Shown in pieces: positions 28,417 through 54,278 of a stretch of 64,000 nt of DNA. Position 1 is the stretch's first letter. Each line of letters begins with the position of its first letter. The notes below the pieces were generated by a model. The model was not told where the DNA came from and did not search any database. It was given only the letters and a program-made list of their open reading frames with translations. The stretch is from positions 1 through 64,000 of the forward strand of contig JALQPE010000294.1 of NCBI GenBank assembly GCA_030407315.1. The letters are read 5' to 3'. The position numbers were made by a program, and so were the translations under genes. The stretch comes from Asparagopsis taxiformis (lineage: Eukaryota; Rhodophyta; Florideophyceae; Bonnemaisoniales; Bonnemaisoniaceae).

Positions 28417-28848
28417 GAATCACCATGATATACCTTTGTAACTTGATTTCCGGGGAGCAATGAACAAAGGTGGCGATATACGTCTACATCTGCTACCAAC
28501 TCGTTTGAATTGGTCCATCCCTTCTGTTCTGCTTCAAATAAGGCCTCAACATAACGAACGGTGCAGCAGTCCGAATTTTTTCTGTGAGTTCTGCACTGTA
28601 TCCCGAGCTGAAATTATCTTTGGGCATCCGTCTGTGTGACTTCGAGAGAGATGAGACTGCAGATAGAACATAAATCCGCAGCTGTACGTGTCTGATTGCC
28701 GTTCATATGACAGCACATCCAAAATGTAGTTCTCTTTGCTTTTCTCCCAGTACACTTCTCCAGGTAGTTCGTTGAGGAAGCTCTCTACGAAATCTAAAGT
28801 ATGCAGAGGCTCTGCATAACGCAAACTGTCCCCCCAATACAATGTTCC
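28417..28848 (-). pseudogene. Ulp1-like gene, right MULE copy, 3' portion
   Basis: This is the continuation of the Ulp1 gene beyond the copia insertion. It retains the Asp motif (YWGDSLRYAEP) and QSDTYSCGF. It is frameshifted straight after that by a missing T (GGATTTATG versus GGATTTTATG in the left copy), and a second base is missing at about 28571 (CGGACTG versus CGGGACTG). The 5' part lies at 35272-35738. Confidence 0.8.
28844..28848 (+). repeat. copia target-site duplication, left copy (GTTCC)
   Basis: GTTCC directly flanks the LTR start at 28849 and recurs at 35272-35276 after the other LTR. The left MULE arm shows the empty site with a single copy (GGAAC on its strand, about 10718). 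Confidence 0.95.
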
Positions 28849-29336
28849 TGTTGATAAAGTTTGGTCGCTTACCGAGCGTTTACTGAATCTGCGAGCTCAC
28901 TACATAATTTGTATTCTCGCCGAGGTGCGCCGGCGGTGCTAAGGACAGCCTGTTCAAGGCTGCTCCAGACAGACTGTCACTGACAGTCTGTCCTAGCAAG
29001 CACCCGCTGCCAATCTGGTACACGTGGGCTTCTCTATCATATCATCCACACGTGTACACTTATCATAACATTTTCCCTCTGCCATGATGGCAACCCATCT
29101 TGGCATTTCTAATTACTAATTGAAACTATGACAAACAAATTGAAACTTCAGAGGCCAGTTACTCCGTAATGGAGTGTCGTAGGAGCCCCGGAGAAGTTGC
29201 TACCCGACTAATTCGGGCACGCTGAATACGATGAGATAGGTTTCAGAGCGCTCAGACCACTCCTTCATAGAGAAATCGAGGGTCAAAGTTTTCTCACGGA
29301 ATTAGGCCTACCAGGCCCATTCTCAGTGAGTCAACA
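28849..29336 (-). repeat. copia 3' LTR
   Basis: It is 488 bp long, with TG/CA ends, and matches 34784-35271 and the solo LTR 51839-52326. It includes a perfect hairpin (GACAGACTGTCA at 28968-28979 and its complement at 28981-28992). The pol stop codon (TGA) falls in its first bases. Confidence 0.95.
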
Positions 29337-34770: not shown

Positions 34771-34783
34771 TGGGCCCATAACC
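34771..34783 (-). other. copia primer-binding site complementary to initiator tRNA-Met anticodon arm
   Basis: Immediately inside the 5' LTR the minus strand reads GGTTATGGGCCCA. The plus strand shows the corresponding TGGGCCCATAACC of the initiator tRNA-Met anticodon stem-loop. Drosophila copia is known to use this cleaved half-tRNA primer instead of the tRNA 3' end. Confidence 0.8.
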
Positions 34784-35271
34784 TGTTGATAAAGTTTGGT
34801 CGCTTACCGAGCGTTTACTGAATCTGCGAGCTCACTACATAATTTGTATTCTCGCCGAGGTGCGCCGGCGGTGCTAAGGACAGCCTGTTCAAGGCTGCTC
34901 CAGACAGACTGTCACTGACAGTCTGTCCTAGCAAGCACCCGCTGCCAATCTGGTACACGTGGGCTTCTCTATCATATCATCCACACGTGTACACTTATCA
35001 TAACATTTTCCCTCTGCCATGATGGCAACCCATCTTGGCATTTCTAATTACTAATTGAAACTATGACAAACAAATTGAAACTTCAGAGGCCAGTTACTCC
35101 GTAATGGAGTGTCGTAGGAGCCCCGGAGAAGTTGCTACCCGACTAATTCGGGCACGCTGAATACGATGAGATAGGTTTCAGAGCGCTCAGACCACTCCTT
35201 CATAGAGAAATCGAGGGTCAAAGTTTTCTCACGGAATTAGGCCTACCAGGCCCATTCTCAGTGAGCCAACA
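34784..35271 (-). repeat. copia 5' LTR
   Basis: It is 488 bp and essentially identical to 28849-29336. The inner end abuts the primer-binding site, the outer end the GTTCC duplication at 35272-35276. Confidence 0.95.
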
Positions 35272-35738
35272 GTTCCGAACTCCAAATCATCTTCGCTCTG
35301 AATACCGAAAACCGCACCCCAATGTCTTTGGTCGATGTTCACAGGAATTGCAAAAGAAAATGCGGCATTTCTATTTACCCAAGCATCAACCATGCTTTCT
35401 CGGATATTGCAATATAGTTCATCGGTTTCATCAAATTCTACATCTGCTGATACATATTTGGAAGCGCCCCTCACGAAGAACTGCGCAGTATTGCTTCCGA
35501 AAACAATTGTGTTTTCTTTGAATTCATACTCGGCAAGACCGGCTAGAAGTAGATGGTCTTCAAGCATCGTCTTGGGAATTGAGTGCTCAAACCATGGCCG
35601 AGCAGCATCGGAAGCCTGAAAAACTAGATCCAAAGCTTCCATATATTCCTTCATTTTCTTACTCTCAGATTTACTCATGTTTTTAAGCCTGGACAGAACG
35701 TGAAAGAACTTCTTTACCTTGAAACTGCCTTTTTCCAT
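35272..35738 (-). pseudogene. Ulp1-like gene, right MULE copy, 5' portion
   Basis: Intact reading from ATG 35738 (MEKGSFKVKKFF) through the region frameshifted in the left copy (here DLVFQASDAARPWF) and the catalytic His motif NIDQRHWGAVFG. It is then cut by the copia insertion at 35271. Together with 28417-28848 it is the second copy of the Ulp1 gene; each copy carries lesions the other lacks. Confidence 0.85.
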
Positions 35739-36983: not shown

Positions 36984-36987
36984 TTCA

Positions 36988-37034
36988 AACACTGGTTTTT
37001 GTCTGTACAGAACGTACTTTCGAAACCAGAATCC
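36988..37034 (+). repeat. left TIR of the 13.5-kb element
   Basis: It pairs with 50451-50497, two mismatches in 47 bp, and contains the CTGTACAG palindrome. Confidence 0.9.
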
Positions 37035-37339
37035 GAAAAATTTTCGATGTTGATTGACTAATCGTAAGTTGATTGAATTGTGGCCAATGGGATGAAGATA
37101 TTGACTGACTGGGCGGCATTGCGCTGACAGTTTCAAGTATAGCACTGCCGTGCTCAATACGATCGCTAGACAGCCTGTCACAGCTCTGTTCATTTCTGCC
37201 TTCAAGTCTGGCTGGAACCGTATTGGTAGTTTCCAATATGATCTGATCTTATCACAATTGGTAGTAGATGAAAATATCAGAATTTATTTTATAAAAAATT
37301 ATATGTGCACCGTGTTTCTACTCACTGGGAGATAGCTAT

Positions 37340-37606
37340 TTGGAGGATCGAAGACTGCTGTCTGGTGATCAAATATGCGAAATCTCTTTTGTGGAACTGA
37401 CTCGCAATCCTGCCAACACTTTGAGACGTATATACCAAGAGTTGAAAATTGATGTTCCTGTGGAGGTTGTCGAACAGCACATCGATATGACTGGTTCCGT
37501 CCACAACTTCAAGAAGAATATCCACCCACCGGTATCCGAAGCGGCCAAAAGGTTTGTGTACTCCAAATGGAAGCGCAGATTTGATGAGTTTGGATACGAT
37601 CAGTAG
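37340..37606 (+). pseudogene. sulfotransferase-like C-terminal fragment (captured)
   Basis: The frame reads DQICEISFVELTRNPANTL, then RRIYQELKI, then a tail with HNFKKNIHPPVSEAAKRF and WKRRFDEFGY. This order matches the C-terminal end of Sulfotransfer-3-type enzymes, which transfer sulfate from PAPS to carbohydrates or other acceptors. The N-terminal PAPS-binding region is absent. The fragment starts about 350 bp inside the transposon terminus, which fits capture of a 3' exon. Family assignment rests on motif resemblance only. Confidence 0.55.
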
Positions 37607-37823
37607 CGTGGAACAAGAGTATGTGACAGTCAAAGAGTAGATTGTTTAGTTTAATGTATCAGTCTTCTAAGCTTGATGTTAGTGCGAAATTAAAGGTGCC
37701 CGGCAAGTCTTGCTCGTTTATGACAACAAATAGTAGGAGCAACGGCTAACAGTGCGTGTAAGCGATAACGGTAGCTGCAGCATCAGCCCCCACGCAAATT
37801 GAGCACCGGATGGAAATGAGCTG

Positions 37824-38174
37824 CTACACGGTCGCAAAACGATCAATTCCATGATCATCTGCCAGAAGCTCGTCATGACAGAGGCGGCATGAGACGAAGA
37901 GGCCGGAGCATTTTGCTTTGAGTTTGTAATTTCGTGCATAGTGCTTACATCCAAGAATAGGTTGCTGTTGAGAAGCGATTTGAGCAGCTTGTTGGTGAGT
38001 GACGATGTTTCCTTGGCGGTCGAGACGGTCATATTGCATTTTGAGAAGGTCGGAAACGTTATTCTGGAGGCGGAGCATTTGTTCGCGCATGTAGGGAGTG
38101 ATCAAGTTATTGTGACAGATGTTGCTTTTGGCTTGAGCGTCAGAGCTTTGGCAGTATCCTCCGCGACATGACAT
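37824..38174 (-). pseudogene. CHY zinc-finger fragment of an RCHY1/Pirh2-like E3 ligase
   Basis: The frame ends in a CHY-type zinc finger start (GCKHYARNYKLKAKC, then SCRLCHDELLADDH), preceded by a Gln-rich helix (MREQMLRLQNNVSDLLKMQY). In normal RCHY1-type ubiquitin ligases this finger is N-terminal to the part found at 38178-38862. Here it lies downstream on the same strand, so the order is permuted. Confidence 0.65.
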
Positions 38175-38177
38175 CCA

Positions 38178-38862
38178 TCACTGCGAGTTAGATGACCCCG
38201 CAACCAATTGTTGGCTGGGTGCCTGATCAACAGGCTCGCGACCAGCAGCTTGAGCTTCCGAGTCAACATCGAAGCTGTATAGAACATTTGTGTTGTAGCT
38301 TTCACAGTCAACATTTGTACATTTGTGATATTCAAAGTGATATTGTACTTCGCCTTTCTCACCACAATCATTGCAACGAATCATCGAGCGCTTGTTGTCG
38401 TGTTCTGGAGGCATCGGCTCGTTGCGAATGTGCTCGTCAATTTGTTCAAAGAAAGATGTCATGTCAAGTAACGAACGCTTCTAAGCGGAGATTGGTAACG
38501 GCCAGCTGTGTATTCTTCAAAACAATCCTTGTGCATAGCATGACGCACCTCATGAAGACCATGGCTTCTGTCGACGTAAAGAGATAAACCCTGCAAACTG
38601 GACAATCTGCGTGCAGTGCTACACGCCGACATTGATGGTGAGTCTTAGACTCGATGGAGACACTAGCGTCACATATATCGCAATGATAGTTGTCGATGCC
38701 AAGCCCCTTACCAAGACGACAGATATTGCTGCGATCGCAGAGATAGATGTTTTTGTTGGGTGTATTCTCGTAAAACTGACAGTGCGGACAAAAGTAGTGC
38801 GCAAAGGAAGTCTTGCATTTGACGCATTTGGGACCGACGTCCTGCTCGGTGAGGCATATCAT
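38178..38862 (-). pseudogene. CTCHY-RING-zinc ribbon fragment of an RCHY1/Pirh2-like E3 ligase, frameshifted
   Basis: CTCHY part: CVKCKTSFAHYFCPHCQFYE. RING part: NYHCDICDASVS, then CPVCRVYLFTSTEAMVFMRC. C-terminal ribbon (38462-38178): IDEHIRNEPMPPEHDNK, then IRCNDCGEKGEVQYHFEYHK and CTNVDCESYNTN. A G is missing at the RING 'CGH' step (TGCGTCATGC, about 38549), and a second frame change lies near 38465, so the three parts sit in different frames. The family ubiquitinates targets such as p53 in animals and MYB factors in plants. This copy is a captured, broken fragment. Confidence 0.75.
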
Positions 38863-38999
38863 GCAAAGGACTTTTTCGGTCCCTCAACCAACCGCCCCGC
38901 CTCCATCTATAGTTTCCTATGACGTCTCGGGAGCCACGAAAACCTCCTTCTGAATGAAAGGGCGCTGGTGTCTTTGATGGTACACAATCTCACTCTCAC

Positions 39000-39417
39000 T
39001 ACAGTGATCCAGGTCCTGAAGTGTCCGGTACCATTTTGTAATACAAGTGGAGATCGAGAGAAAACATCGAGGGTAAGGTAGTGAAGAGGGTTAATAACAA
39101 CAAGTCGGGCATGGTTGAAGCCATGTTTCCGACTGGGAAAACAACAGTCACACTTGAAGTTGTCGATTCAACAGGTGATGTTGCGAAAGATACTGCCGTA
39201 GTAGAAGTGAGGGCGTCTACCGCCAACGGCGCTTATTGTTACTCGTATGATTTCGGTGACTGTTATAGTATTTTAGATTACGTTTCCATCAGCCAACAGC
39301 TCAATGGTGAGCCTAAACCACTGTTCGGAGGTAGAACTGATCGTATCGATTTCCAGAGAGCGTCAGACTTTGGTAACTTCAACTTTGCTCAGAATTCGTT
39401 TGCTGTCCCGGACAGCA
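39000..39417 (+). pseudogene. PKD-like secreted-protein fragment (captured)
   Basis: The frame reads SDPGPEVSGTIL, stop, YKWRS, then FPTGKTTVTLEVVDSTGDVA and a stretch (GAYCYSYDFG, LNGEPKPLFGG, FNFAQNSFAV) like the PKD-plus-PA14/GLEYA-type region of algal secreted proteins. It breaks off exactly where the antisense RecQ fragment begins (about 39418), so the two captured pieces abut head-on. The domain call is from motif memory and is tentative. Confidence 0.4.
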
Positions 39418-40928
39418 TTGGGCATCAAGACGAAAACATTCCGACCTGATAATGCTGCGTTCATGGCTTCTCTTTGATTAGGACGGAATCCAGGGTTTCC
39501 AAACAAGTTGCGGTTTTCCATTGCTAGCCGGAAGGACCATAGGAACTTTTTCTCAGGCCCGTCTTGCCATTTCATTATCTCTTGTTTGTCTACGGCTTGT
39601 GCTCCACCCTGGGTACCATGTATCTCACGCAGCATTCCTTGCCGTGGCGCCTCAGTCGGTGTAAACGCCATCGGAAGCTCTTCATCATCTCCGGGCGGAG
39701 GAACTTCTTCGGCAGGTAGTGGTTCTGCGGATACGAACAGTCGTGGATCCAATGAATCGACATCTACTGTAATATATTCAGGGCGCTGATACGACTGTCG
39801 GCGCTGTTCTCGATTTACACACGAGTTAGCTGCAGCGCCATTCAAAGGGAAATTGTGCTGCTGTGCGTCTGTTCTTGGTTGTGCATACCCTGTAGGCCGG
39901 GGAGGAGGGAAGTAATTGTTTATGATGTTGACATTACCGGAAGGATTGCCATATTGAGGATCCACTTAAAGAGGAACAATGTTGGATGTGTTAGGCTCAG
40001 AGTGTGAAGTTCCGTAACGAAGAGTCTGGGCGACGGTACTCGCATCAGGTCTGGGGACGTCATTGGTCTCAGGCGTCACGGGCAAAAAGGCTTGGGCAAC
40101 CCGGTTCCTGGCCTGAGCGGTGGGTACGGGAGTCGTAGATGAATGGTTATTTTCGACAGCACGCAACTTCTCCGTTAGTTCCTTGATCTGAGCTTGGCAT
40201 TCCGCTTGACATTTGGTGCATACAGCAATAGTTTCTGAATCGATATCGAGCGCAAGCAGACTGGATGTCTGATATAGGCAATTATGTAGTGCAATAATGC
40301 GGCGCTTTAGACTTGCAGAATTCGCACCCCTACCTCTTGAGCACGGGTCGGATGTCTGCACCGCAGCAGCAGAAAAATTCGAGGCTGGTTCATTGCGAAC
40401 AGGTAAATTTGATGTGCTCTAATGGGAAGTTGCGTGCACGCATTCGTCATGACGCATTTCAGGCTGTCGCGTGCGTTCCGCTATCACCGAGTCGACATCA
40501 ATCTCAGCAAAAAGCTGGCCATCTGAATCAAGAATCACGGTTTCGACTGGAGGGTTTGAAACACTAACATTCTTGCTTGATGTACCGCTGGTTGTGACGA
40601 AGGAATTTGCTGGTAGGTCATGAGTTGAGCGGTTAGGGGGTTGCGCAGGTGAGTCACAAACGATAACTTCCGGCGGTGGTGGCTGTCTCATTCGTCGAGC
40701 ATTAGCAACTTGGGTGTCGGGACAGGTGAAATCCTCAATTTCATCTGGTTCATCATGAGATCTGGGCGAAGAAAGGTCTATTGTATCTACGCATGGGTTT
40801 CGTCGCACAGTTGGTGGTATTCGACTACCCATAGGCGCTGGAAGTTTGCTTTGTTCGCGGTTTCGTTGAAGGGGAAGTGAATTCAAATTTTGAATACGCT
40901 GCAGTTGCGGGCGATTGAATGTATGCAT
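39418..40928 (-). pseudogene. RecQ (BLM-like) helicase N-terminal fragment, cut at Walker A
   Basis: The minus-strand reading 39965-39418 ends in FGNPGFRPNQREAMNAALSG, then RNVFVLMP. This is the RecQ motif 0/start of motif I. It stops being RecQ exactly where the ATP-binding TGGGKS should follow, at the junction with the PKD-like fragment. Upstream frames (40361-39966 and 40928-40419) are low-complexity, acidic and Pro/Ser-rich like the disordered N-terminus of BLM-type helicases; frame breaks separate them. Without helicase motifs it cannot be an active enzyme. Confidence 0.65.
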
Positions 40929-41770
40929 AGTGGATTTTGGTGGCTGTCGTAATGCAATTCCTTGGTCGATTGTTTGGGTTGATACAGTGGGAGGTACTAT
41001 CCTGGTTTGGGCGGCTGCATAGAGTGATTCTCCCTTGAACGCACCGGTACAACAGATGGTGTATCCGCTTGTAGAGAGGGATTGGTGTGCGCATGTCTGG
41101 TGATCGATGCATCACTTGGAATCGCCGTGCCTGTACTTGGAATAGGCACAGAGGATGCTGCTGATGTTCGCTGCGTACCCCTATCAATCAGCGGTGGATG
41201 TGCCTGAGGCGGACGAGGTTTCCGACGAACATAAGTTGGAGGAGGTGGCGCAGGGACTCTGTGTCCTTCGCTGGTGAGCTCTTGACGACGCGACGCGCAG
41301 CTCGGGAATGTGTTACCATGTTGGTGTTCGTCCCAAAAAAAGGAAACAACAATTGTTCCGGTCGTCTAAAAATTGAAAACAACGCCCAACCTGATGACAG
41401 TAACCTGAACCGCCCTCGCGACGAAAGCGGGAAGGGAGATGCACAGATCCAGGTAGTACAAAATGTCCTGGAGGAGATGGCAACCATGTCTTCATCACAC
41501 ACATGGTGCTGGACACAGAGGATTTGGGAGACGGAAGGGAGAGGGAACGATTTGAAGGCCTTGGAGGGTCATGGATGCACGGCTTACAGAACATACTATC
41601 TGGCAGTGAAATGGCCGGCGTGCTTCCAGTAGAAAGCCGCCGGCCGCGGGTACAAATTTTATCAGATGTCACAATTCAAAATTATGACTCAAAATTTTGT
41701 ACCGACCAGTTGTGCTTCAAATTGAAGCACATCGCTCCGTGAAATGTTGTACCTCACACGCCGTACCTCC
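40929..41770. other. no clear gene; possible further N-terminal RecQ-type sequence
   Basis: Low-complexity open stretches on minus (41187-40825) may extend the disordered N-terminal region of the RecQ fragment. A plus frame (41198-41632) shows no recognisable domain. Confidence 0.3.
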
Positions 41771-41779
41771 CGCGAATAA

Positions 41780-42190
41780 GTGGCTGTCTTTGTGTTGCAC
41801 TCTTCGAGCGTCATGTGCACAATCATTGTGCACATGTGTGCACCTGAGACGCTATGTGTGTATCTGAGACGCCATGGCGTGGATGTCCACCAACAAGTGG
41901 CTGTGTGTTTGTTGCATTCTTTGAGCGTAATTTGCACTATGATTGTGCACATGTGTGTACCTGAGACGCCATGGCGTGGATGTCCGCCAATAAGTGGCTG
42001 TGTTTTTGTTGTATTTGAGCGTAATGTGCACAATGATTGTGCATGATTTTGCACATGTGTGTACCTGAGACGCCATGGCGTGGATGTCCCGCCAGTAAGT
42101 GGCTGTGTTTTTGTTGCATTATTTGAGCGTAATGTGCAAAACGATTGTGCACATGTGTATACCTGAGATGCCATGGCGTGGATGTCTCTT
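41780..42190 (+). repeat. about 100-bp tandem repeat, 4 copies, with dyads
   Basis: GAGACGCCATGGCGTGGATG recurs at 41866, 41963, 42067 and (one change) 42165. Each unit also holds a TGCACAATCATTGTGCA-type dyad and an AAGTGGCTGTGTTTTTGTTG stretch. CGCCATGGCG is itself palindromic. The array separates the captured-fragment half of the transposon from its own gene set. Confidence 0.85.
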
Positions 42191-42281
42191 CCGGCGCCTC
42201 CGTGAGCTCACGAAAGACAGGCTGACAATGAGTGTTGCAAAGTAACTTTGCAAAACTTTGGAAAACTCTTTTACGGTGAGA

Positions 42282-43304
42282 CTAACGGAGGCGCTGGGAA
42301 TGTAGTTTCAAGTCCTGAAAAATACTTTTTGGTAAGCGCATTTCGGGGAGAGAGGGGAATGTGGCAATCACCGAGCTGGGATCGACGAAGTCACACCAGG
42401 GAGTAGGTGTATTCAATACAAAGCAAGGCTTGTAGCGGCTTTCGAATGCATCTCCTTCCTTCTGAAACCAGTGTATGCGCAGCTTTGTGACGCCCGCCCC
42501 TCTCTTCCTTACGCTCTGTACCTTTCCGACCCAGAATGGCTCTTCAGGAGTACACTCATTACCACGGATGACCACAAACCCATTTTTTTCGGGTAACGGG
42601 AGAGAGGGGCGCATGGTGGTGTCCGTGGAGTTGTCTTGGTCCTCGTCTTGCGCGCGCGCATCCATTTTCTGATGTCCTTGATCTGCCATTTCCTGATTTA
42701 CACCTGAAGCCACGTCCCGACGTCCAATTCCGTCACTTTTTGTACCGCTTGTCCCCCTCCCATCTGCACCGCTTTGCCCGGTTTCCTGCAATTCCGCGAG
42801 TCCGCCAGTATCCGTTCCATCTAAATTTTCCACTCTGTGAGCTCCTCGGCGCGTAGAATCACCGTCCAAAATCTTCACGATTCCCTTGACCACCAGCATC
42901 TGATAAGCCCGCTTTAGAATTTTTTTGTTAGACCACTGCATCTCCCTGGAGAACCCGAATGACTTGGTTAGAAACTCATAGCACACGACCCTTCCATTAT
43001 ACGTATACATCTCGGAGACACAGTCATAGAGCGAACGCAAATACTTGTTGCGAACAGCAGTAGTGCTCACTGACATTGCTTTCGTATCTTCGGACAGCTT
43101 GTCCCCATCGACAACAGCAAAACATGCCCGATTATCACAGCATTTAAAGGAACCCAGTTTTCCAGCCGCATTCAACTCAGCGATCTTCGCTGCTCTAGCG
43201 CTGTAGCGCTGAGTACGAGACGAGGCTGGCCGGGATGGTGACGGAGACGGTGGTTGGTGGTGCGTTGCATGCTGTAAATTGCGCTTCTTGAAGGGCGCGT
43301 CCAT
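42282..43304 (-). CDS. 340-aa protein with the N- and C-terminal domains of the DUF7869-type protein but no catalytic core
   Basis: The chosen start is ATG 43304 (MDAPFKKRNLQHATHH). The upstream in-frame extension to 43571 looks like leader sequence. Residues about 45-150 contain CCDNRACFAVVDGD, KYLRSLYDCVSE, YNGRVVCYEFLTKSFGFSRE. This parallels the CCEKRCFW, RKYLLSMLQ and GRPVCYRFLEYSFKFSR of the 47857-50358 protein. The C-terminal about 100 residues (RGNECTPEEPFWVGKVQSVR, LRIHWF, RYKPCFV) parallel that protein's C-terminus. It is transcribed away from the methyltransferase gene. It may be a DNA-binding regulator or repressor made from transposase end domains; this is inference. Confidence 0.7.
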   Translation of the reverse strand: MDAPFKKRNLQHATHHQPPSPSPSRPASSRTQRYSARAAKIAELNAAGKLGSFKCCDNRACFAVVDGDKLSEDTKAMSVSTTAVRNKYLRSLYDCVSEMYTYNGRVVCYEFLTKSFGFSREMQWSNKKILKRAYQMLVVKGIVKILDGDSTRRGAHRVENLDGTDTGGLAELQETGQSGADGRGTSGTKSDGIGRRDVASGVNQEMADQGHQKMDARAQDEDQDNSTDTTMRPSLPLPEKNGFVVIRGNECTPEEPFWVGKVQSVRKRGAGVTKLRIHWFQKEGDAFESRYKPCFVLNTPTPWCDFVDPSSVIATFPSLPEMRLPKSIFQDLKLHSQRLR

Positions 43305-44628
43305 GGTTGATAGGATAGTGAAGTGAAACAGAATCCAAGTATGAACGCAGAACACTATATTTATAGACTTCGGAACGAACTTCTGATCAAGTTCGGTTGC
43401 CATGTGGCTGCCGAATGTGCAGCGCTTTGCTGATGACTGATCAGTCGAATGGCATACATTTGAATAGTTCTGACAAAATGTCTTTTCGACACCACATCTG
43501 AGCAGTTCCACGACAGGTCGTGAACTGAACAGTTCCAACGAGCTGGAACATAATGTTCCAAGTGGTAACACTGTTCTATATCAGGAAAGTCTATATGGGT
43601 GTGAGTAGGAAATGCCGCAAACAATGTTGATTATCCTGTTCGGTGAACTGCATTCAACCTTTCATCTTCAAAGTGTTCGTGACATCAATAGACAAATTAG
43701 GAAGTAATCTATGTAGTTCAAGCCTTCAATATGGCTCTGAAGTTCAAGTAGCCAGTTTCGAAATGAGGTATCGCATCTGGTGGCACAACTTGGATAAGTT
43801 GAGTGCCTTCGAATAGACTGTGGACAGATATGATGCTGAACGAACTGATATTTTGGTTCGCACCAAAAGTCATGGTGAGGGTAGCGGTAAAGGCAGCAGT
43901 TGTTGATAGTTGAAGGTATACTTTGGAACGATCAGAAACAAAATTTTTTCGAATGCGAACCATAGCTATGAATCGTGCACTCACTGAAAGACCTATCCCG
44001 CAATATGGATACTACGTACATTGCTTCCACAAGCTGTAACACAGAAAAACCCTGGAAATGGTACGCAAACGTGTCAAGAAATTATTTGGCATACAGCAAC
44101 TTGGCTGTGATGATCTTGGACATCAATCAGAACAGGAAAACGTACGAAATCGGCTCAAGAACCAAAATACGAAATAAAATCCCGTCATATGATTTGTAAT
44201 TGGATGGAACTGGCCCAACTGCATAACGAAATAGTAATTTCCCATTACTGATAACAAATTTAGGGCCGTCCCGGCATAACAACTAGAAACCTATGTGAGC
44301 TGCAGCGCCCCCTGCACATCAGATCTAAGAGTGACTTGGCGCCGACGATCGTAGCACGTGACAAAGACTGATTTGGCCTCATGAGCTTCCATCAGTTATA
44401 CACTGTGGGTTCTATTGTATGTCAAGGGTTCTTTTTTCACTTTCGTTCATTGCCTGGAGTGACTGGAAAGCTCCCGTCTTCTGCTGCTAGAACATTCTTT
44501 CGTTCTGGACCTCTCCGGCCTTTCTTTCTCCGCTCTAAGGGTAGGCTGAACTGGATTCGTACCGGATATCAGGACCCCCATTTATTTCCATTTCCTCTTG
44601 ACATCTGCAGGCATTCTGTACCTAAACA
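43305..44628. promoter_or_regulatory. 1.3-kb divergent intergenic region
   Basis: It lies between the start of the minus-strand 340-aa gene and the plus-strand methyltransferase gene, so it should hold both promoters. A pyrimidine-rich 3' splice-like site (CATCTGCAG, ending about 44610) just before the methyltransferase ATG suggests a 5'-UTR intron. A minus open stretch at 43718-43984 is unrecognised. Confidence 0.4.
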
Positions 44629-47589
44629 ATGAAGAAGCCAAGCACAAGACCTGGAGCGAAAACTTCCGGGCATGGAAAGGAACTTCGTTCCGGAAGATTT
44701 CAAGACTCAGTTGAAGTTCTATTCGGGGATGTCATGGAAGGATCAATGAATACCCGTGTCGACCCCCGCGGGTGTATACCGCTTACTGCTGTTCGGAATA
44801 TCGTGCGGTCTGGTGTGGAACGAATGAAACTGATATTCACTGGATCGATGAAATATGATTCGGCGTGTGATGGAACAGATGGTGTAGATGGCTTTGTAGC
44901 CGGTTCCGACAATGCCATCGTTGTCGAGCTGACAGGGTCGTTGAAAAGACACGTGCTGGATTTCTTCAAATCCCAAACTGGCTCGGATGGAGAGCTCCTT
45001 AGCGAATCGAAAGCGAAAGAGAAAGTAGAAAGCCGCTCTGTCTGGTACGGTGTCGTCGACGGGATGCACAGACTTACGGCAATACAAGAGCTGATGCAAG
45101 AAATACCAGAAAGGTGGGACTCGTTCTTATGGCCAGTCACAATTCTTGATGGGGGGCAGTCTATTCATGTACTGAAGCAGCTCGGGAGACACCAGAATCG
45201 AAAGCATAACTCGAACTTTTACATCGAAACCACTTTCTATGATATGCTTCATGGCATGAAGGAGGAGGCTGAGAGATTACAGAGCATGTCATCCCGGAAA
45301 CCCTCGGCCAAGCAAGTAGCAGCAGCATACGACGGCTCCACACACTTGAAGGACAATACCATCAGACAAACTGCTGCCACTGCTCTTCGACTACCCGACA
45401 GGGTGGTGGATGAGATCGGTTTGATAATGAATTCAGAGTTCCCTGATCTTGTAGGATCCATTGCTGGTACCAAAGACGTTCGTCGAGGAGGTGATTCAAA
45501 GATATCTACAGTGGAAACCAGAGTATATCGGAACTTTATTAACATTACTTCCCTGAAGTCGGCGACGAAGTTTATGAACGCTTCTGGACCAGATGCTGAG
45601 GAAATTCAAGTTTGCACATTGTATAGAATGCGAGATCTTTCCAAATTGAACAAGTTTAAACCGATTTCATACAAGATAACAGTACAGCAGTTCGAACTCA
45701 CGTGTGCAGCAATGAAAGAGGCTCGCAAATTTGAAAGTCTACATGAAGATAGTACATGGCCTCCTGAAATGGAGGCAACGAAAAAAAACTTGCTTCGCAC
45801 TACAAAGTTTGATTCCGAAGTCACAGAAAACCTCGGCAATGACCATGACGTTCTGAATTCACTCCTGAACCAGTACAGGAAAGTTTGTCCACAGATAGCC
45901 CCCTTGAAAGAGAAGAAATATGCCGAAAGTCGAAACAAAGAACCGGACCAGGATTCTAAAGAGAAGGAGACCGATTTTCGGCAAGATGAAAGGACATCCG
46001 GAGATCCCGACCCTAATTCCCGCGTGGGAGACGATGTTGACCTGATCCACGGTCCACCCCCGTGCGAAGTGCAGGAATTAAATAAGCAGGAAAATGTTGG
46101 AGAAGAGCCTAAGTTCAGTCAGGTTACTACTGGCTCTGTCCAAGACGCAGTCGGAATGGGTACTGAAGCAAAAAAAAGTTCGAAAAATGGGTCAGCACCG
46201 AAAACACTGGAGAAAGTTGCAGAAACTCAAAGTGTCAACTCTGAGAGACTGAACCTACGCGCAAAGCGAAACTCCCTTGGGGCTGGCAAACATGACAACA
46301 TTGAATACGTATCCGAAATGAAGATAACCTGCCACCAGATGAAATGGCAAGAGTTCGATAAGGAGTTCTGGACAGATGAAAAACCACTTCTAGATATGAT
46401 GCTAACTGATCCTCCGTACGGTACACCTAGATCCAGATCGCTTCGTAATTCACCTTACGATAACTTTATTTCCGACAAAGATATCAAGGATCTATGCCAG
46501 TTTTCAAGAAGGGTTTTGAAGCCTGGGGGCTGGTTCTTCTGTTTCGTTTCTGTTCGGAACTTTCCCCTCCTCACTGATGAGCTCCGAAATGCAGGCTTTG
46601 AATGTCCGGACTACCCTTTTGTTATTATGAAGGATACGAGTACTATTCAGCACCACCGAGGCGATACGTTTCCACAGAATGCTTGTGAATTTGCCGCTTT
46701 CGCAAGAGCTCCGGGAATCCGAACAGATGGGTTCAAACCTGACCTTCGTAGCCCGTACCACTTCATCTCAACTGACACGAAACGAAAGTTCGCTGCAATT
46801 GCTGGAGTTCCTGTTCCGAAGGACAAGCTCCTCACTCCAGGAACAAAGTCACCAGTTCTGACAGAAGAAAAGAATATCAGTTTGCTTTCGGAAGTAATCA
46901 ATACCTTCTGTCCGGAACGTGGTTCTGTCATCGATGCTTACGGGGGTACATTAACAACCGCCATTGCAGCCATGAGAACTGCTCGTTCGTGCGTGATAAT
47001 TGAGGCCAGTGCCAACACTTTTCGTTTAGCGTACGAGAGACTCCGTTCTGTAGCTGAAATATTATACAACCAAGAAATCAAGCCTATTCGAAGGTCTAAG
47101 AGGCGGAAAACAGGAGAATGCGTGGAGGACACTATACGCTCTTCCCAGGAATCTGTTCCCAACCAGGAATTGGGTTCTGGTCTCGACAAAGAAGGATTTC
47201 AGGAACGGAAGGACGACAGAAATTGCCAAGCGGAAAGTGAGCATGATGATTGGCCAGATCACATATTCCGAGGCGGGGATATTGTCAATTTGTGCTTATC
47301 TGGGAAAACAGTGGGAGAAGCAACTTTGCTTCGTCCATTGTCTACTGGTGATCGATTTCAAACTACTATTCACAATATCCCCCTTTCTAGATTCGCAAAG
47401 AAGGGAGAGAAACTCGTTTCGTGCTACAAATTCGAACTGAGAGAGGGTTCCGGAGACCGAACCTATCCTTACTGTTACGGTGGTGTGGAGCCCCCTCCGG
47501 AAACGTTGAAGGGACTGCTTGGAATATTCGCTTGGGATATTTTCAGCATGGAACCGAAACGCAGTCAAAGTTTTCCCGAGTCGAAATAG
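44629..47589 (+). CDS. ParB-like domain fused to beta-class DNA amino-methyltransferase
   Basis: This is an intact 986-aa protein. Residues about 25-260 form a ParB/Srx-like domain with VVDGMHRLTAIQEL (Asp144, His147, Arg148) and a helical DNA-binding-like continuation (KPSAKQVAAAYDG). A charged linker (about 430-560) follows, then a methyltransferase with TDPPYG (593-598) and VLKPGGWFFCFVSVRNFPLL. The SAM site IDAYGGTLTTAIAAMR (768-783) comes last. DPPY before the SAM motif is the beta-class order, so the enzyme should methylate N6 of adenine or N4 of cytosine; which one is not decidable here. A basic cluster RRSKRRKTG (about 820-829) looks like a nuclear signal. ParB-methyltransferase fusions are typical of phages and bacterial mobile DNA, so horizontal origin is likely. 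It lies 267 bp upstream of, and on the same strand as, the DUF7869-type gene. Confidence 0.85.
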   Translation: MKKPSTRPGAKTSGHGKELRSGRFQDSVEVLFGDVMEGSMNTRVDPRGCIPLTAVRNIVRSGVERMKLIFTGSMKYDSACDGTDGVDGFVAGSDNAIVVELTGSLKRHVLDFFKSQTGSDGELLSESKAKEKVESRSVWYGVVDGMHRLTAIQELMQEIPERWDSFLWPVTILDGGQSIHVLKQLGRHQNRKHNSNFYIETTFYDMLHGMKEEAERLQSMSSRKPSAKQVAAAYDGSTHLKDNTIRQTAATALRLPDRVVDEIGLIMNSEFPDLVGSIAGTKDVRRGGDSKISTVETRVYRNFINITSLKSATKFMNASGPDAEEIQVCTLYRMRDLSKLNKFKPISYKITVQQFELTCAAMKEARKFESLHEDSTWPPEMEATKKNLLRTTKFDSEVTENLGNDHDVLNSLLNQYRKVCPQIAPLKEKKYAESRNKEPDQDSKEKETDFRQDERTSGDPDPNSRVGDDVDLIHGPPPCEVQELNKQENVGEEPKFSQVTTGSVQDAVGMGTEAKKSSKNGSAPKTLEKVAETQSVNSERLNLRAKRNSLGAGKHDNIEYVSEMKITCHQMKWQEFDKEFWTDEKPLLDMMLTDPPYGTPRSRSLRNSPYDNFISDKDIKDLCQFSRRVLKPGGWFFCFVSVRNFPLLTDELRNAGFECPDYPFVIMKDTSTIQHHRGDTFPQNACEFAAFARAPGIRTDGFKPDLRSPYHFISTDTKRKFAAIAGVPVPKDKLLTPGTKSPVLTEEKNISLLSEVINTFCPERGSVIDAYGGTLTTAIAAMRTARSCVIIEASANTFRLAYERLRSVAEILYNQEIKPIRRSKRRKTGECVEDTIRSSQESVPNQELGSGLDKEGFQERKDDRNCQAESEHDDWPDHIFRGGDIVNLCLSGKTVGEATLLRPLSTGDRFQTTIHNIPLSRFAKKGEKLVSCYKFELREGSGDRTYPYCYGGVEPPPETLKGLLGIFAWDIFSMEPKRSQSFPESK

Positions 47590-47856
47590 TATTCCATCGA
47601 TATCCAGACACTTTGTCAATGACAAATCATTTTTCATGATCTATTGGTGCTAGTTAATCCGGATTAGAGGAACCAGATTTCATTATTTGGTTCCGGCGGC
47701 GGATACTGACCGTCGCTGCCCGTTAGTATCATGAGAAATCGAGCTGAAGTCCACTGAGTCATTTTGCAGAAATCCATTTGTTTCCATTTCTATTACCTCA
47801 AGCTTCCATCAAAGCCACTCCGCAGTCACCGAAACAAATCTGATCGTTTCCCCACC

Positions 47857-50358
47857 ATGAATCACTTTCGGCCGCCACTTCAATTCCGTTCCCAATTGCA
47901 GTCGAGTGAAGAGCAGTCGAGTGAAGAACATATGTTGCGCTCGTTATCTTCTCGTCACGTGAGCGATACATCTCCATGTGGTACTCCTTTCATCGAGTAT
48001 CAAAGCACAGGAAGCATCTCATGGTACAACGCTGTTCTCTCGAGACCTGGTTCTGGTCCCGGCAACGGCACGCAGAATAACACTGCACACAGTCACTCCG
48101 AGGAGAGTTCCGATTTTGGTAACGAAACAAATAACATTTCAACCTCGCCCATCTCCAAGCCTGTAACAAAACTGAAGAGGCCATTTTCTAGACTTCGAAA
48201 TGGAGAATGCGCTACTTCTGATCACATAGCAGCTGTTCCGTCTCAATCTACGATGAGTACAATGCGGCAGAAGAGAAAAAAATTCATCAACTCTCTCTCA
48301 GCTATGGACATTCGCAAAAAAACGTGTTGTGAGAAGAGGTGCTTCTGGAAAACCGATATCGTATTCTTGCGCCACGAAGCAGGAAGAGTCCTTCTATGGA
48401 ACAGGGAAGAACGGCGGAAATATTTACTGAGCATGCTACAGGCCAACAAGAAAGTGTACTATTTCTCAGGAAGGCCCGTTTGTTATCGCTTCCTCGAGTA
48501 TTCCTTCAAGTTTTCGCGACATCTCCAGAGCTCAGTTAAAAAATCTGCTGAAGAAGGAACCTCAGTCTTGTTCAAAGGTGCGAGAAGAGATGCTGCTTCA
48601 CCACAGAGGGATGCAATCATCTGTTTCCTCGACCGTTTAGCATCTTCTACTGCCGATGATATGCCAGACAGAGCAGAGAAACACCTACCTCTCTTTCAGA
48701 AGAGACCTGTATACGAAATGTTTTGTGATCAGTACGACGTTCTTTATCCCGGAAAGGCATTTCCCACTTTGAGTTACTTTTACACAACTTGGAAAAAGTA
48801 CTGCAGTCATATCAAGGTCAGGAGAATCCACAGATTTATGAAATGTTCAGAGTGTGAATACCTACGGGATCATCTGGAAAGGATCGGAACTGATTCTTCT
48901 CGCACTGCACCACTTCTTGAGCGCCGTAAACTGCATATTGAAATGGTATCACGGGAGCGAAGGGAGTACCAGAAGAAGTGTGAGCAGGCGGCGCTATTTC
49001 CATCAAGATTCACATCATTGATTGTCGACGGGGCTGACCAGTCCAGCTACGGCCTACCTCATTTCATTGTCAATACGAAAGCAACCGTGGGCCATAGCTT
49101 GAAAGTGAAATTAATAGGCGTTCTCGAGCATGGAGTTCAGAAGCACCTTTCGCTCTACACGATGACTGCTGAGTTCGAATCCGGCGCTAACCACATAATT
49201 GAGGCGCTACACAGGACTCTTACAAGGAAAGCTATGGGATCAAAACTGCAAGGGACACTATTCGTGCAAGTTGATAATTGCACAAGAGAGAACAAGAATA
49301 GGTTTCTGTTCTGCTATCTGGAGTGCCTTGTCGCATGGGGTGTTTTCCTTGAAGTTCAAGTTTCGTTCCTACCAATTGGGCACACTCATGCTGACATTGA
49401 CCAAGCGTTCAGTTGCACCTCGCGGAGGTTGCATTGCTATAATGCAGCTACCATGGACGATCTAATTGGGGAGCTACGGCTTTCTTACACACCGGAGCCA
49501 TCTGTTTGTCGTATGAATCACGTCGCAAATTTCTCTGGCCTTTGCATGAACGAAAATTCGATTGGAAAGGTACATGCATTTTCAAAGTACAGGTACTTCA
49601 AGTTTTTCCGCTCTGAAAGTTCGGATCGTCGTACTGGCTGGTACAACACGGCATGTAACGTCAAGCTCTCCTGCGACGATGAATGGGAGCCCCTCCCAAC
49701 AATCACACTGGGTCTAAAGGGCTTCACATTGGTACCACCGGATCTCAAAGTAGTTCCTCCCACAGTGTTGAAAAGTCCGCCGGATCGAGACGAAGTCATG
49801 TTAAGACTTCGAGCAGAGGAAACCAGAGTTAATAGTACTTCAAAGATGATGCAATTGCATGCATTGATTGAACAGGTATATTCGAATAGGGATGACCCTT
49901 TTCACTGGAACCTACATGAGTGCTTCGAGCTGAACGGAGTGTACCGCAATCAAGTTTCGAATAGATTGGTTCTACATGAGGAGGACGAAATTTCGAACGC
50001 ATGTTCGGCTCCGTTGACTGACCTCCCTTATTCTGTAAATCGCTTTGTATCCGTAAACGGAGAAGGTTGTACAACCGATATGCCGTTTTGGTTGGGGCAG
50101 ATAAAAGCTTGTGAGGAAAACGGTGAAGGGGTTATCAAAAGATTATCAGTTCGGTGGTACGAGGTCTACGATAAGGGGAATGTATGGACCGGGAAGTATC
50201 GCCCTGCAGTGATACGAAAGCGTAATAGGGCGGTACCATGGGAGAGTACTATTTCAGTCGACACCGTCATTGCTGAATTCGCGTCACTCACGAACAAAAG
50301 AATTAGAGTAGGAGTAGAAAAAGAAATCCGAGCTGGGCTAGCATCAATGCTGAGGTAA
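47857..50358 (+). CDS. DUF7869-type RNase H-fold protein, putative transposase
   Basis: I prefer ATG 47857 (CCCACCATGAATC, good context) over the in-frame ATG at 47764. In order there is a Ser-rich N-terminus and a CCEKRCFW...GRPVCYRFLEY region. A zinc-like CSECEYLRDHL follows. The core has SLIVDGADQSSYGLPHF (Asp422 counted from 47764), LFVQVDNCTRENKNRFLF (Asp504) and FLPIGHTHADIDQAFS (His540, His542, Asp544, Asp546). The spacing of acidic residues suits an RNase H-like nuclease. DUF7869 proteins are known in many marine eukaryotes without assigned function. The C-terminal about 100 residues (FWLGQIKACEENGEGVIK, LSVRWYEV, KYRPAVIRKR) match the short protein at 42282-43304. Position inside matched TIRs makes it the best transposase candidate of the element. 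Confidence 0.7.
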   Translation: MNHFRPPLQFRSQLQSSEEQSSEEHMLRSLSSRHVSDTSPCGTPFIEYQSTGSISWYNAVLSRPGSGPGNGTQNNTAHSHSEESSDFGNETNNISTSPISKPVTKLKRPFSRLRNGECATSDHIAAVPSQSTMSTMRQKRKKFINSLSAMDIRKKTCCEKRCFWKTDIVFLRHEAGRVLLWNREERRKYLLSMLQANKKVYYFSGRPVCYRFLEYSFKFSRHLQSSVKKSAEEGTSVLFKGARRDAASPQRDAIICFLDRLASSTADDMPDRAEKHLPLFQKRPVYEMFCDQYDVLYPGKAFPTLSYFYTTWKKYCSHIKVRRIHRFMKCSECEYLRDHLERIGTDSSRTAPLLERRKLHIEMVSRERREYQKKCEQAALFPSRFTSLIVDGADQSSYGLPHFIVNTKATVGHSLKVKLIGVLEHGVQKHLSLYTMTAEFESGANHIIEALHRTLTRKAMGSKLQGTLFVQVDNCTRENKNRFLFCYLECLVAWGVFLEVQVSFLPIGHTHADIDQAFSCTSRRLHCYNAATMDDLIGELRLSYTPEPSVCRMNHVANFSGLCMNENSIGKVHAFSKYRYFKFFRSESSDRRTGWYNTACNVKLSCDDEWEPLPTITLGLKGFTLVPPDLKVVPPTVLKSPPDRDEVMLRLRAEETRVNSTSKMMQLHALIEQVYSNRDDPFHWNLHECFELNGVYRNQVSNRLVLHEEDEISNACSAPLTDLPYSVNRFVSVNGEGCTTDMPFWLGQIKACEENGEGVIKRLSVRWYEVYDKGNVWTGKYRPAVIRKRNRAVPWESTISVDTVIAEFASLTNKRIRVGVEKEIRAGLASMLR

Positions 50359-50450
50359 CCACTAAGACAAAATAAAATTCAATCAACTTGACATAGCTTC
50401 AATCAATATGACACTTGTCATATCCCCTATTCAATCATTATGAAAAAACC

Positions 50451-50497
50451 CGATTCTGATTTCGAAAGTACGTTCTGTACAGACAAAAACCAGTGTT
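50451..50497 (-). repeat. right TIR of the 13.5-kb element
   Basis: It is the inverted match of 36988-37034, followed by TTCA at 50498-50501 as the target duplication. Confidence 0.9.
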
Positions 50498-50501
50498 TTC
50501 A

Positions 50502-51109: not shown

Positions 51110-51838
51110 TTGGTACCACCAAATTACAATCATACCTTTATTGTTATGGGCTCCAACGCTACCCTTCCGTCCCGCCCGAAGTTTTCGTGGGATGTTCGGT
51201 CTGTCCCATGGACTGATGGAAAAGGTGATCAATCACAGTATGCAGGTGCTGTTGCACTATGGCAACTTTTTCACAATGGCCTGCCGAAGAATAACTCCAA
51301 TAAGATTCCGTTGAACTTACAAGGAATCATGCTGAAGTCTCAGCTTTTTGGTAGGGCGTTTGATTTTTGTCGACATGTATCGGATGATGTTATCCAGTCT
51401 GATGATGGTGTGGATGCTATCGTTGATGCAATCCACAAAAGAGATCCATTGGCTGTTATTGGTGATGTTTATCAAGATTTCTTGGATGTTTTGAATGTTA
51501 AACGTGGTGAAAAGGAAAGCTTCAAGAATTATGAAGCACGTTTTGATGCTCATGTGAAGAAGTTTAATTCTCATGCGGACTCTGCGCGACCTCCTGATGC
51601 GTTAGTTGCGTTTATTATGCTTGCTAATGATAAAGTGGATAGCGCTGAGCGATCGCTCAACTCGAGTTTCTGTGCTTGCTTCTGCTTCTCGCACAGAAGG
51701 CCTTACTTCCAAGTCTTCAACAGCAGACTTTTTGCAAGCTGTGTCTTACAGTTCGGTTGCGTCTGTAATCAGGCAATGTGATAAACCGGCTGGCTCTTCT
51801 TCTAGTGACAATGGAACACTTGTTGCTAATTATGTTTC

Positions 51839-52326
51839 TGTTGACTCACTGAGAATGGGCCTGGTAGGCCTAATTCCGTGAGAAAACTTTGACCCTCGAT
51901 TTCTCTATGAAGGAGTGGTCTGAGCGCTCTGAAACCTATCTCATCGTATTCAGCGTGCCCGAATTAGTCGGGTAGCAACTTCTCCGGGGCTCCTACGACA
52001 CTCCATTACGGAGTAACTGGCCTCTGAAGTTTCAATTTGTTTGTCATAGTTTCAATTAGTAATTAGAAATGCCAAGATGGGTTGCCATCATGGCAGAGGG
52101 AAAATGTTATGATAAGTGTACACGTGTGGATGATATGATAGAGAAGCCCACGTGTACCAGATTGGCAGCGGGTGCTTGCTAGGACAGACTGTCAGTGACA
52201 GTCTGTCTGGAGCAGCCTTGAACAGGCTGTCCTTAGCACCGCCGGCGCACCTCGGCGAGAATACAAATTATGTAGTGAGCTCGCAGATTCAGTAAACGCT
52301 CGGTAAGCGACCAAACTTTATCAACA
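51839..52326 (+). mobile_element. solo LTR (488 bp) of the copia family at 28849-35271
   Basis: TGTTGACTC...CAACA, full-length and apparently near-identical to the two LTRs above, in opposite orientation within the window. It is flanked by GTTTC at 51834-51838 and 52327-52331. It interrupts gag of the GalEa-like element. Confidence 0.95.
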
Positions 52327-54278
52327 GTTTCTACATCGCGGCGCAAACAGCCTAAGTACAGAAAATCTAAGCTTAGCCCGGAAGATTTTGCAGCTCTTAA
52401 AGCTAGAAGTAGGTGCCGCAAATGCCATATGATTGGTCATGGGGATTCTGACCATAACGCGGACGGCACTTACACACCGAGAAAAAACAATGAACGGTCT
52501 CCTACTTCTCATGGTGGTTTATAGAAGTCTGTCACATTTAATATGGTACAGTTGGGCAAAACGGAGATGCTATCTGGTGGATACATTGGTCCTCTTGTGG
52601 ATGATGGAGCACGCTACAGTGGTATTGGTGAGGATGAGTTCAAGATGCTCCAGCCACTAATCCTCCCTGAATGGTCTGGGAAGTATGACCCATTACCAGA
52701 TAAGATTAGTGATCGACCCTATTGGCAATATGGCACTGGCCAACATTCAAGCCAGTTGCGTCGTATTATTGGATCGGTATCACTGACGGCAAAGTCTGAT
52801 AATGGTAACGCAGTAATCATACGACATATGGTCATCTAAGGTTCCTCTCAGTGGATCATAGGCAGAAATGTTACTCGCAATTGCAACATTGTTCACCCTG
52901 GAACTAATGTATTACAGCTTCCAGTTGAAGATGGATGCCTTACACCTGACTCAATTACTATGATTGACCATGATTTTCACAGCTATTTGTCTTATGAAAT
53001 GTTCCTTGATAACGATGTATACTGATCTAAGGATGTTGAAAGAGCTATTTTTTGTGCTACTGCACAGATTAATGGTTGTGATTCAAGCCTGATGTGGCCT
53101 GATAAGAAGAAGATTATTGATAAGGTCCACCATCATATTTGTGGGCACTCTTCCTACACTGATATTAAGATATTACTTCAACGTAATAATATATGGGATT
53201 CCGATGTACAGAAATATCTGAGCTCTGTTCTTTAGACGTGCTCCAGTTGTAACACTACAAGCACACCTGATCGGACTAGGAAAGTGTCTTTAAGTTCTCT
53301 ATCCCGAGAGTTTAATCAAGTTGTGTGTATTGACCACTTCTTTGTGGATGAGCTCAAAATATTTCATGTCATGGATTCAGTAACCCGGTATTCTGTTGGT
53401 ACAGTTGTGTCTGATACCTCGATGATGGCAGCCATTACGGCTTTTCAGATGCTTTGGATTACTCCTTTTTGGACGCTGGATACTATTGTATGTGATGCTG
53501 CATTCAAGAATAAGACATTCACGGACTATCTTCATCGGAATGGTATCACGTCGCGTATATTCCCGCCTCGCCGTCACAATAAGAATGTGATTGAATCTAA
53601 ACATCGCTTTATTCGGGATTTGTATTTGCGACTTAAATCTGATGTAGATACTTCTAATAACCTCACGATCATGCTGCTTATTCAAAGAGCTATTCGAATC
53701 TCCAATGATTTATATGGTAATGGTTTCATGTCTGCCAATGAAATGGCAAAAGGTTTTACACGACCTGTGTGTGATGGAAAATTTCCTTCAGAAATCCCTG
53801 ATGATTTCACTGACGCACACAATGCATTGTTGGCAAAGCGAAAGCTTACACTAATACTACGTTCGAAGGCCATCAGTGAAGTACCTATTAGTGTTAGTGA
53901 TCTTGTTGAAATACGCATCAAGCGTAATAATGAGAAGAGAGGCAAATGGACAGCTGCAAAAACTGTTCTTACGATCATGCCTCCAGAACAGTGACTGTTC
54001 CTGGTAAAAGTGGTCGGACAATTTCAGCTTCTACTGAGGATGTTAGACCTGCACTGTCTGAAAGCTCTCTGGCTACTGCTATTCAAGAATCAATTGATTA
54101 TATGGATTCTGCGCTCAGCGAAGCTATTTCTGACATGACAGATGGTGACTCAAATCATGATTTGCAGATCGATTCAGTCAGCAATGATGGAATTGATGTA
54201 AACTGCAACCCAGTTGACATTGGTCATGATTTCGATAGTGAACATATTAATTCTACATATGAAGTACCTCATGTAGGT

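Follow-up and report, generated by a model that had tools for sequence, protein, structure and literature searches.

A recently mobile DNA transposon of the red alga Asparagopsis taxiformis carries a ParB-like DNA amino-methyltransferase next to a probable DUF7869 transposase

A DNA transposon of 13,510 bp that has recently been mobile occupies positions 36988-50497 of the window, a 64,000-nucleotide stretch of the genome of the red alga Asparagopsis taxiformis (assembly GCA_030407315.1, contig JALQPE010000294.1, positions 1 to 64,000 of the forward strand). Besides a variable left arm it encodes an 864-aa DUF7869 protein, very likely its DDE-type transposase judging from the modelled fold, a 986-aa protein that joins a ParB/sulfiredoxin (Srx)-like part to a beta-class DNA amino-methyltransferase, and a 429-aa core-less paralogue of the transposase (Table 1). 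All three frames are open, as a first-pass annotation made from the letters of the window had stated. With moderate confidence in the explanation as a whole, which we consider the best one, we propose that the DUF7869 protein moves this recently active element and that the ParB-guided methyltransferase would mark the DNA of the element itself.

Ends, empty site and copies of the element

The tips of the element were set by reading eight copies side by side, the one in the window and seven further ones, named here by contig. The inverted match at the ends (36987-37033 against 50452-50498) spans 47 nucleotides, 46 of them identical, in agreement with the 47 bp given by the first-pass annotation for the terminal inverted repeats (TIRs); since the outermost base at either end is part of the target-site duplication, the TIR proper measures 46 bp (45 of 46 matching). 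The tip AACACTGG...CCAGTGTT is present at all eight left ends and at seven of the eight right ends. Six of the eight copies are flanked by perfect 4-bp duplications of differing sequence (TTCA, GTCA, CAGA, GTAC, ACAG and TAGA) and C1838 by GTTG, provided that one base of a TIR tip was lost; only C606 has no duplication, perhaps through recombination. TIRs together with a duplication of fixed length, 4 bp in seven of eight copies, are the hallmark of DDE-type TIR transposons. The subterminal TTGATTGA repeats may be bound by the transposase, a tentative role because the 8-mer also occurs at 49864 and 51037 and, inverted, at 27619.

An empty site is found on contig C232, where a 246-bp query made of both flanks joined at one TTCA matches positions 131723-131968 at 246 of 246 bases. 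The left 3,988 bp and the right 4,003 bp of flanking DNA both match C232 at a rounded 100%, with the left-flank match running up to 131850 and the right-flank match from 131847 onwards, so that they overlap by exactly 4 bp; of the alternatives TTCA and TTTCA offered by the first-pass annotation, only TTCA is therefore retained. One assembly thus contains the same site, or a very recently duplicated one, both with the element (window) and without it (C232). The left 181 bp have at least 40 matches at 85-100% identity (40 scored of 337 first-look candidates), and for the last 198 bp 40 of 186 candidates were scored, all at 98% or more and 23 of these 40 at 100%, so that the right end is more uniform among copies than the left; the window is included in both counts and in the 19 correctly oriented left-right end pairs on single contigs, of which 18 span 12.66-13.52 kb and one, with an insert, 19.4 kb. 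Copy counts are possibly inflated, since the assembly may contain more than one haplotype: the neighbouring contigs C1693/C1694, and likewise C2059/C2060, carry copies at a nearly identical place. The TIR is found at many genome sites rather than only here, and the empty site exists, two of the three points on which the first-pass annotation had staked its idea of a TIR transposon; end pairs, near-identical copies and empty site together bear out a multi-copy, recent element, and it is near certain that the unit is a mobile DNA transposon of a red alga.

The DUF7869 protein and its core-less paralogue

The 864-aa protein matches DUF7869 with an E-value of 1.1e-47, and its predicted structure has a DDE/integrase-like RNase H fold in which the core appears to share the order of strands and acidic residues with Mariner/Mos1, Metnase and retroviral integrase. 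Because of this fold and the conserved acidic residues D422/D425, D504 and D544/D546, candidates for the catalytic triad, the protein is very likely a DDE transposase, the first-pass annotation having proposed it as the transposase; the assignment is also backed by its presence in the seven further copies read, five of which (C1795, C2022, C2123, C606 and C663) match it over the full length without stops. A profile search of PDB with DUF7869 gave just two weak, irrelevant matches, an NCBIfam scan gave matches only far below the cut-offs, and KDZ was matched neither by the protein at E up to 1 nor in a genome search, which was run without a positive control. Across the genome there are 502 first-look DUF7869 candidates, and all 150 that were scored exceed the cut-off, fall into several families and have frames of up to 939 aa. 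These data lend support to a catalytic function of DUF7869, which is listed in Pfam as a domain of unknown function and is named by no paper in the literature searched.

The 429-aa protein matches the N-terminal part (E 1e-14) and the tail (E 1e-11) of the transposase, and the DUF7869 catalytic core is not matched. Its frame is whole in five of the seven further copies and broken in two. One of just two relatives found, P0096, has the same core-less layout at 35% identity, so this form has lasted. Truncated transposases can act as repressors, and the 429-aa protein might, at a guess, be a regulator.

The ParB-like methyltransferase and its conservation

The 986-aa protein matches PF01555 (N6_N4_Mtase) above the cut-off, at E 4.3e-11, and has the motif TDPPYG near residue 593, followed by the S-adenosylmethionine (SAM) motif near residue 769. 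Since the DPPY motif precedes the SAM motif, the protein is a DNA amino-methyltransferase of the beta class, in agreement with the first-pass annotation, with a predicted activity on N6 of adenine or N4 of cytosine. The ParB part is weak by profile, the PHROG ParB profile matching one of 13 family members at E 0.044 and a DndB profile three of the 13 at E 0.09 at best. The protein does contain DGMHRLTAI, and a DGxHRxxA-like motif is a feature of ParB/Srx proteins; in a structure comparison with viral proteins, a phage 'ParB/Sulfiredoxin' protein came out best (E 1.2e-8, TM 0.20, 803 columns aligned). In the public relatives P0011 and P0012, TDPPYG is replaced by TEPPDAP, and the catalytic motif thus looks to have been lost while the protein was retained.

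The methyltransferase frame is whole in four of the seven further copies (C1795, C2022, C519 and C606). Among 46 matches scored out of 2648 candidates, 22 of the window family and 18 of a subfamily at 61-64% identity (open frames of 1026-1027 aa) are full-length and stop-free. The subfamily was chosen for the test of selection because the 99% copies differ by too few changes. Compared codon by codon with one of its 18 members, the gene of the window has a proportion of synonymous differences (pS) of 0.83, which is saturated, and a proportion of nonsynonymous differences (pN) of 0.25. By region, pN is lowest in the methyltransferase domain (0.14), followed by the ParB part (0.19) and the C-terminal module (0.28), and highest in the linkers (0.46-0.54). 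The gene is under strong purifying selection with respect to this relative and has very likely been retained for some function.

Linkage to DUF7869 and a shared module

Linkage was assessed with 150 of the 502 DUF7869 candidates, 150 of 2605 PF01555 candidates and all 18 subfamily loci. Nine of the 18 subfamily loci have a scored DUF7869 domain on the same strand at a distance of about 1.5 kb, and a distant third lineage has PF01555 and DUF7869 genes in back-to-back arrangement on seven contigs, with about 3.69 kb between them (7 of the 150 PF01555 matches). The pairing in this third lineage is confirmed at locus L056, whose ParB part has 35% identity to that of the window. Hence, the ParB-methyltransferase adjoins DUF7869 in three diverged lineages of the Asparagopsis genome. 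Of 12 methyltransferase relatives in a public protein set, 3 come from contigs with exactly the length of that of a DUF7869 relative (7926, 8748 and 8751) and are presumed to share the contig with it; P0001 (99.5% identical to the subfamily copy L058) and P0013 (99%) are not independent of the Asparagopsis genome.

The last part of the methyltransferase is a module of about 95 residues that also matches certain DUF7869 proteins at their N-terminus (E 7e-16 and 6e-12). A single round of profile searching places it in 8 of the 12 methyltransferase relatives and, N-terminally, in 9 of 82 DUF7869 relatives; none was found in L056. In the window and in each of the three presumed pairs, four cases and thus few, the module is located on exactly one of the two proteins, which suggests a domain that may be required once per element and could ride on either protein.

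Related methyltransferase genes elsewhere in the genome

All 150 PF01555 candidates scored exceed the cut-off, their open frames measuring 248-1410 aa and 101 of them reaching at least 900 aa, so the first-pass view that amino-methyltransferases are rare in eukaryotic mobile elements is in part wrong; they may rank with the most numerous of all transposon genes in this alga. At locus L057 (2572-6129, that is G000:C159:22072-25629) a frame of 1186 aa combines a ParB-like N-terminus (PHROG ParB, E 0.003) with N6_N4_Mtase (E 2.4e-16) and a SET domain (27.5 bits, Pfam cut-off 22.4). Open frames of exactly 1186 aa occur in 38 of the 150 scored matches, one of which was read. Downstream of the SET fusion, L057:6448-7709 contains nested repeats in which a long palindrome around GTCATCGTWACGATGAC occurs in seven exact copies, and the minus strand of L057:8228-10000 has an open frame of 591 aa that runs off the end of the locus and lacks a Pfam match, and in which an HxD...H pattern like that of 2-oxoglutarate/iron oxygenases was seen by eye.

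What the methyltransferase may do

Because the methyltransferase gene is under purifying selection and stands beside DUF7869 in three lineages, its product probably serves the element. We hypothesize that the DUF7869 transposase acts on the element ends, that is on the TIR and perhaps the TTGATTGA repeats, while the ParB-like part would steer the methyltransferase to element DNA, to which it would add N6-methyladenine (6mA) or, less likely, N4-methylcytosine (4mC). The mark could keep copies expressible or tune the access of the transposase, and the methylation state may in turn be read or modulated by the BAH-like transposase tail and the 429-aa core-less paralogue. For the self-directed marking taken by itself, the balance is about even. 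The wider linkage count weighs against the proposal. A scored DUF7869 domain lies within 5 kb in only 7 and within 10 kb in only 10 of the 150 best PF01555 matches, about 3 being expected by chance for the latter distance; on this count the commonest methyltransferase families, the SET fusion included, have no demonstrated co-travel with DUF7869. A bolder version, which we consider possible and rather unlikely, is a self-contained epigenetic system with the ParB-guided enzyme as writer, the BAH-tailed transposase and its core-less derivative as readers and the module coupling both, the SET fusions elsewhere extending the writer. If this were true, a SET-fused ParB-methyltransferase would be a single transposon protein that could mark both DNA and protein.

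Alternatively, the methyltransferase could be a true accessory gene that acts off the element, on the host genome, rival elements or incoming DNA, for instance in defence or as a chromatin modifier that makes carriers tolerated. This is rather unlikely. In its favour, related amino-methyltransferase genes are very numerous and, among the best-scoring of them, most lack a scored DUF7869 in their vicinity; also, a similar protein is paired with a transposase of another superfamily in the Ectocarpus Sola1 element described in PMC12477816, so that the ParB-methyltransferase is not bound to one set of ends. Against it, the linkage to DUF7869 and the module common to transposases suggest a role in transposition itself, and the window frames scanned gave no Pfam match to a restriction-enzyme family.

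It is improbable that the element belongs within a described superfamily, Sola1 or EnSpm-like, with the species alone being new. Sola1 elements make 4-bp duplications, as does the element of the window, a length not specific to Sola1, and EnSpm/CACTA elements start with CACTA or CACTG and make 3-bp duplications. The 4-bp duplications also given for Sola2 (PMC3627910), the ParB-methyltransferase of Sola1-1_Ec32 (PMC12477816) and the CACTGG within the tip fit such a placement. The DUF7869 protein, however, has DUF7869 as its sole match and none to Transposase_21 at E up to 1, although the genome has 36 separate matches to this EnSpm-type family, 34 of them above the cut-off. EnSpm/CACTA was rejected on this ground, on the AA that precedes CACTGG inside the element at all eight left ends read, and on the 4-bp duplication.

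It is very improbable that the ParB-methyltransferase was picked up as a mere passenger in the same way as the left-arm fragments: the element does hold host-gene-like fragments and the methyltransferase frame is broken in three of the seven further copies read, but the left-arm fragments are frame-split and variable, whereas the methyltransferase is full-length and stop-free at 22 places of the window family, with pN far below pS against the 61-64% relative. We give equally little credence to descent from an integrated plasmid or virus whose ParB was kept for episome partition, to which the phage structure match over both domains and the phage families matching the methyltransferase domain in all 13 members would point, since TIRs, 4-bp duplications and the integrase-like DUF7869 protein account for mobility, the element frames scanned show no Pfam match to a replication or capsid family, an IMG/VR scan with two peptide patterns found no relative, and the one phage record with a match, a weak one, covers 22% of the protein.

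Left arm, tandem array and neighbouring features

The left 5 kb of the element stand outside the conserved gene set and consist of host-gene-like fragments that differ among copies, probably a variable zone of captured host gene fragments. Part of 37.3-41.3 kb is replaced by a different arm in three of the seven further copies (C519, C606 and C663), and the single alternative arm scanned, that of C519, contains an NB-ARC fragment. The fragments match other contigs at 93-95%, compatible with a donor gene or an element copy. The right half of the sulfotransferase-like fragment is missing in variant-B copies, and the zinc-finger gene remnant, which we take to be RCHY1-like, is accompanied by a RING match in C519. 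A RecQ/helicase-like appearance of 39366-39965, noted by eye, had no Pfam match and is not claimed. The TGCACAATNATTGTGCA-type 17-bp near-palindromes of the tandem array number four with at most two mismatches, against 0.04 expected, and one may speculate about an operator or a ParB-like site; as ParB sites the palindromes were rejected, since exact ones also occur in the flanks, none occurs in L056 and those of L057 lie inside nested repeats.

Table 1. Features of the element and its target site (window coordinates; a dot marks features without strand)
Feature	Position	Strand	Remarks
Left target-site duplication, TTCA	36984..36987	.	single TTCA in the C232 empty site
Left TIR, first bases AACACTGG	36988..37033	+	tip common to 8/8 left ends
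Two subterminal TTGATTGA repeats (37050, 37069)	37050..37076	+	candidate transposase-binding sites
Sulfotransferase-like fragment	37295..37603	+	PF13469 E 7.6e-4, below Pfam cut-off; probably captured host sequence
Zinc-finger gene remnant (presumably RCHY1-like), several frames	37824..38883	-	zf-CHY E 2.7e-8, zinc_ribbon_6 E 3.1e-22
Variable left-arm cargo, open frames	39366..41187	-	mostly replaced in variant-B copies
Tandem array with four 17-bp near-palindromes TGCACAATNATTGTGCA (41816, 41933, 42027, 42135)	41770..42217	.	
429-aa core-less transposase paralogue	42282..43571	-	matches N-terminal part and tail of the transposase
986-aa ParB/Srx-like protein with beta-class DNA amino-methyltransferase	44629..47589	+	C-terminal module common to transposases
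C-terminal module of the methyltransferase, aa 883-978	47275..47562	+	also N-terminal in other DUF7869 proteins
DUF7869 protein, probable DDE-type transposase with BAH-like tail	47764..50358	+	864 aa from first TTG
Subterminal TCAATCAA repeats (50379, 50399)	50379..50406	-	inverted copies of the left-side repeats
Right TIR, last bases CCAGTGTT	50452..50497	-	40/40 scored right ends at least 98%, window included
Right target-site duplication, TTCA	50498..50501	.	empty-site comparison

Outside the element, repeats of about 490 bp at 28848-29336, 34780-35272 and 51839-52330 recur on many contigs at about 100% identity; the first and second, separated by about 5.9 kb, resemble the long terminal repeats (LTRs) of one retroelement and the third a solo LTR. 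An open frame at 51110-51781, just right of the element, has weak Gag-like Pfam matches below the cut-off. Elsewhere in the genome, one Transposase_21 match on C129 lies about 6.6 kb from a methyltransferase. The genome has 13 phycobilisome matches, 11 of them on one contig that looks plastid-derived, which mark the host as a red alga; for two of them the best solved structures are phycobilisome proteins that we presume to be from red algae.

Significance and comparison with known systems

The presence of 6mA and 4mC in eukaryotes is disputed, and we know of few clear eukaryotic writers of bacterial type. Eukaryotic 6mA has been tied to permissive chromatin in a 2025 study (PMC12695648; see also PMC8885841), the main text of which does not contain the terms red alga, rhodophyt or ParB. 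The element described here presents a predicted methyl writer of bacterial type maintained by selection inside a transposon, and self-marking can be tested directly by native long reads because occupied and empty sites with near-identical flanks exist in one assembly.

Likenesses to the proteins of other mobile DNA are partial. The phage protein A0A6J5MMM5 (BFVD), the top viral structure match, is likewise of the ParB/Srx type and aligns over most of the 986-aa length, but is shorter (494 aa) and phage-borne, unlike the transposon-borne protein of the window, and phage family PHROG 67 matches the methyltransferase domain in 13 of 13 members. Mariner/Mos1, Metnase and retroviral integrase have an RNase H-like core, as predicted for the DUF7869 protein, from which they differ in that the element of the window has a 4-bp duplication and its transposase a BAH-like tail and a longer N-terminus. 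The Mariner elements of large DNA viruses also carry a methyltransferase as an accessory gene, together with an endonuclease, yet their methyltransferases belong to other families, their transposase is different and the word ParB does not occur in the main text of the paper that describes them (PMC3627910).

The closest precedents are algal. According to PMC12477816 (2025), the Ectocarpus element Sola1-1_Ec32 carries a 1104-aa accessory protein with a ParB-like part and an N4C/N6A methyltransferase, the authors already propose self-marking of transposon DNA, and green and red algal cases are cited, including the giant EnSpm elements of Bostrychia moritziana (Petroll et al. 2025); reference 50 of that paper is a 2011 book chapter. 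The element of the window has the same combination, a ParB-like part, weak by profile, joined to an N4C/N6A methyltransferase in a TIR element. The 2011 chapter is presumably that of Iyer et al.; the literature searched, which covers neither it nor Petroll et al. 2025, contains no DUF7869 pairing, core-less paralogue, shared module or ParB-methyltransferase-SET protein. The first-pass statement that no such gene set had been described may thus hold for the pairing with DUF7869, not met in the literature searched, and fails for the ParB-methyltransferase of algal transposons, already published (PMC12477816). The red algal giants cited in PMC12477816 resemble the element of the window in their host group, large size and several accessory genes, but are classed as EnSpm, the Transposase_21 signature of which our element lacks. 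Like Sola1-1_Ec32, the element of the window is a giant algal DNA transposon with a ParB-methyltransferase accessory protein; set beside it, it has the methyltransferase upstream of DUF7869, on the same strand and within 13.5 kb.

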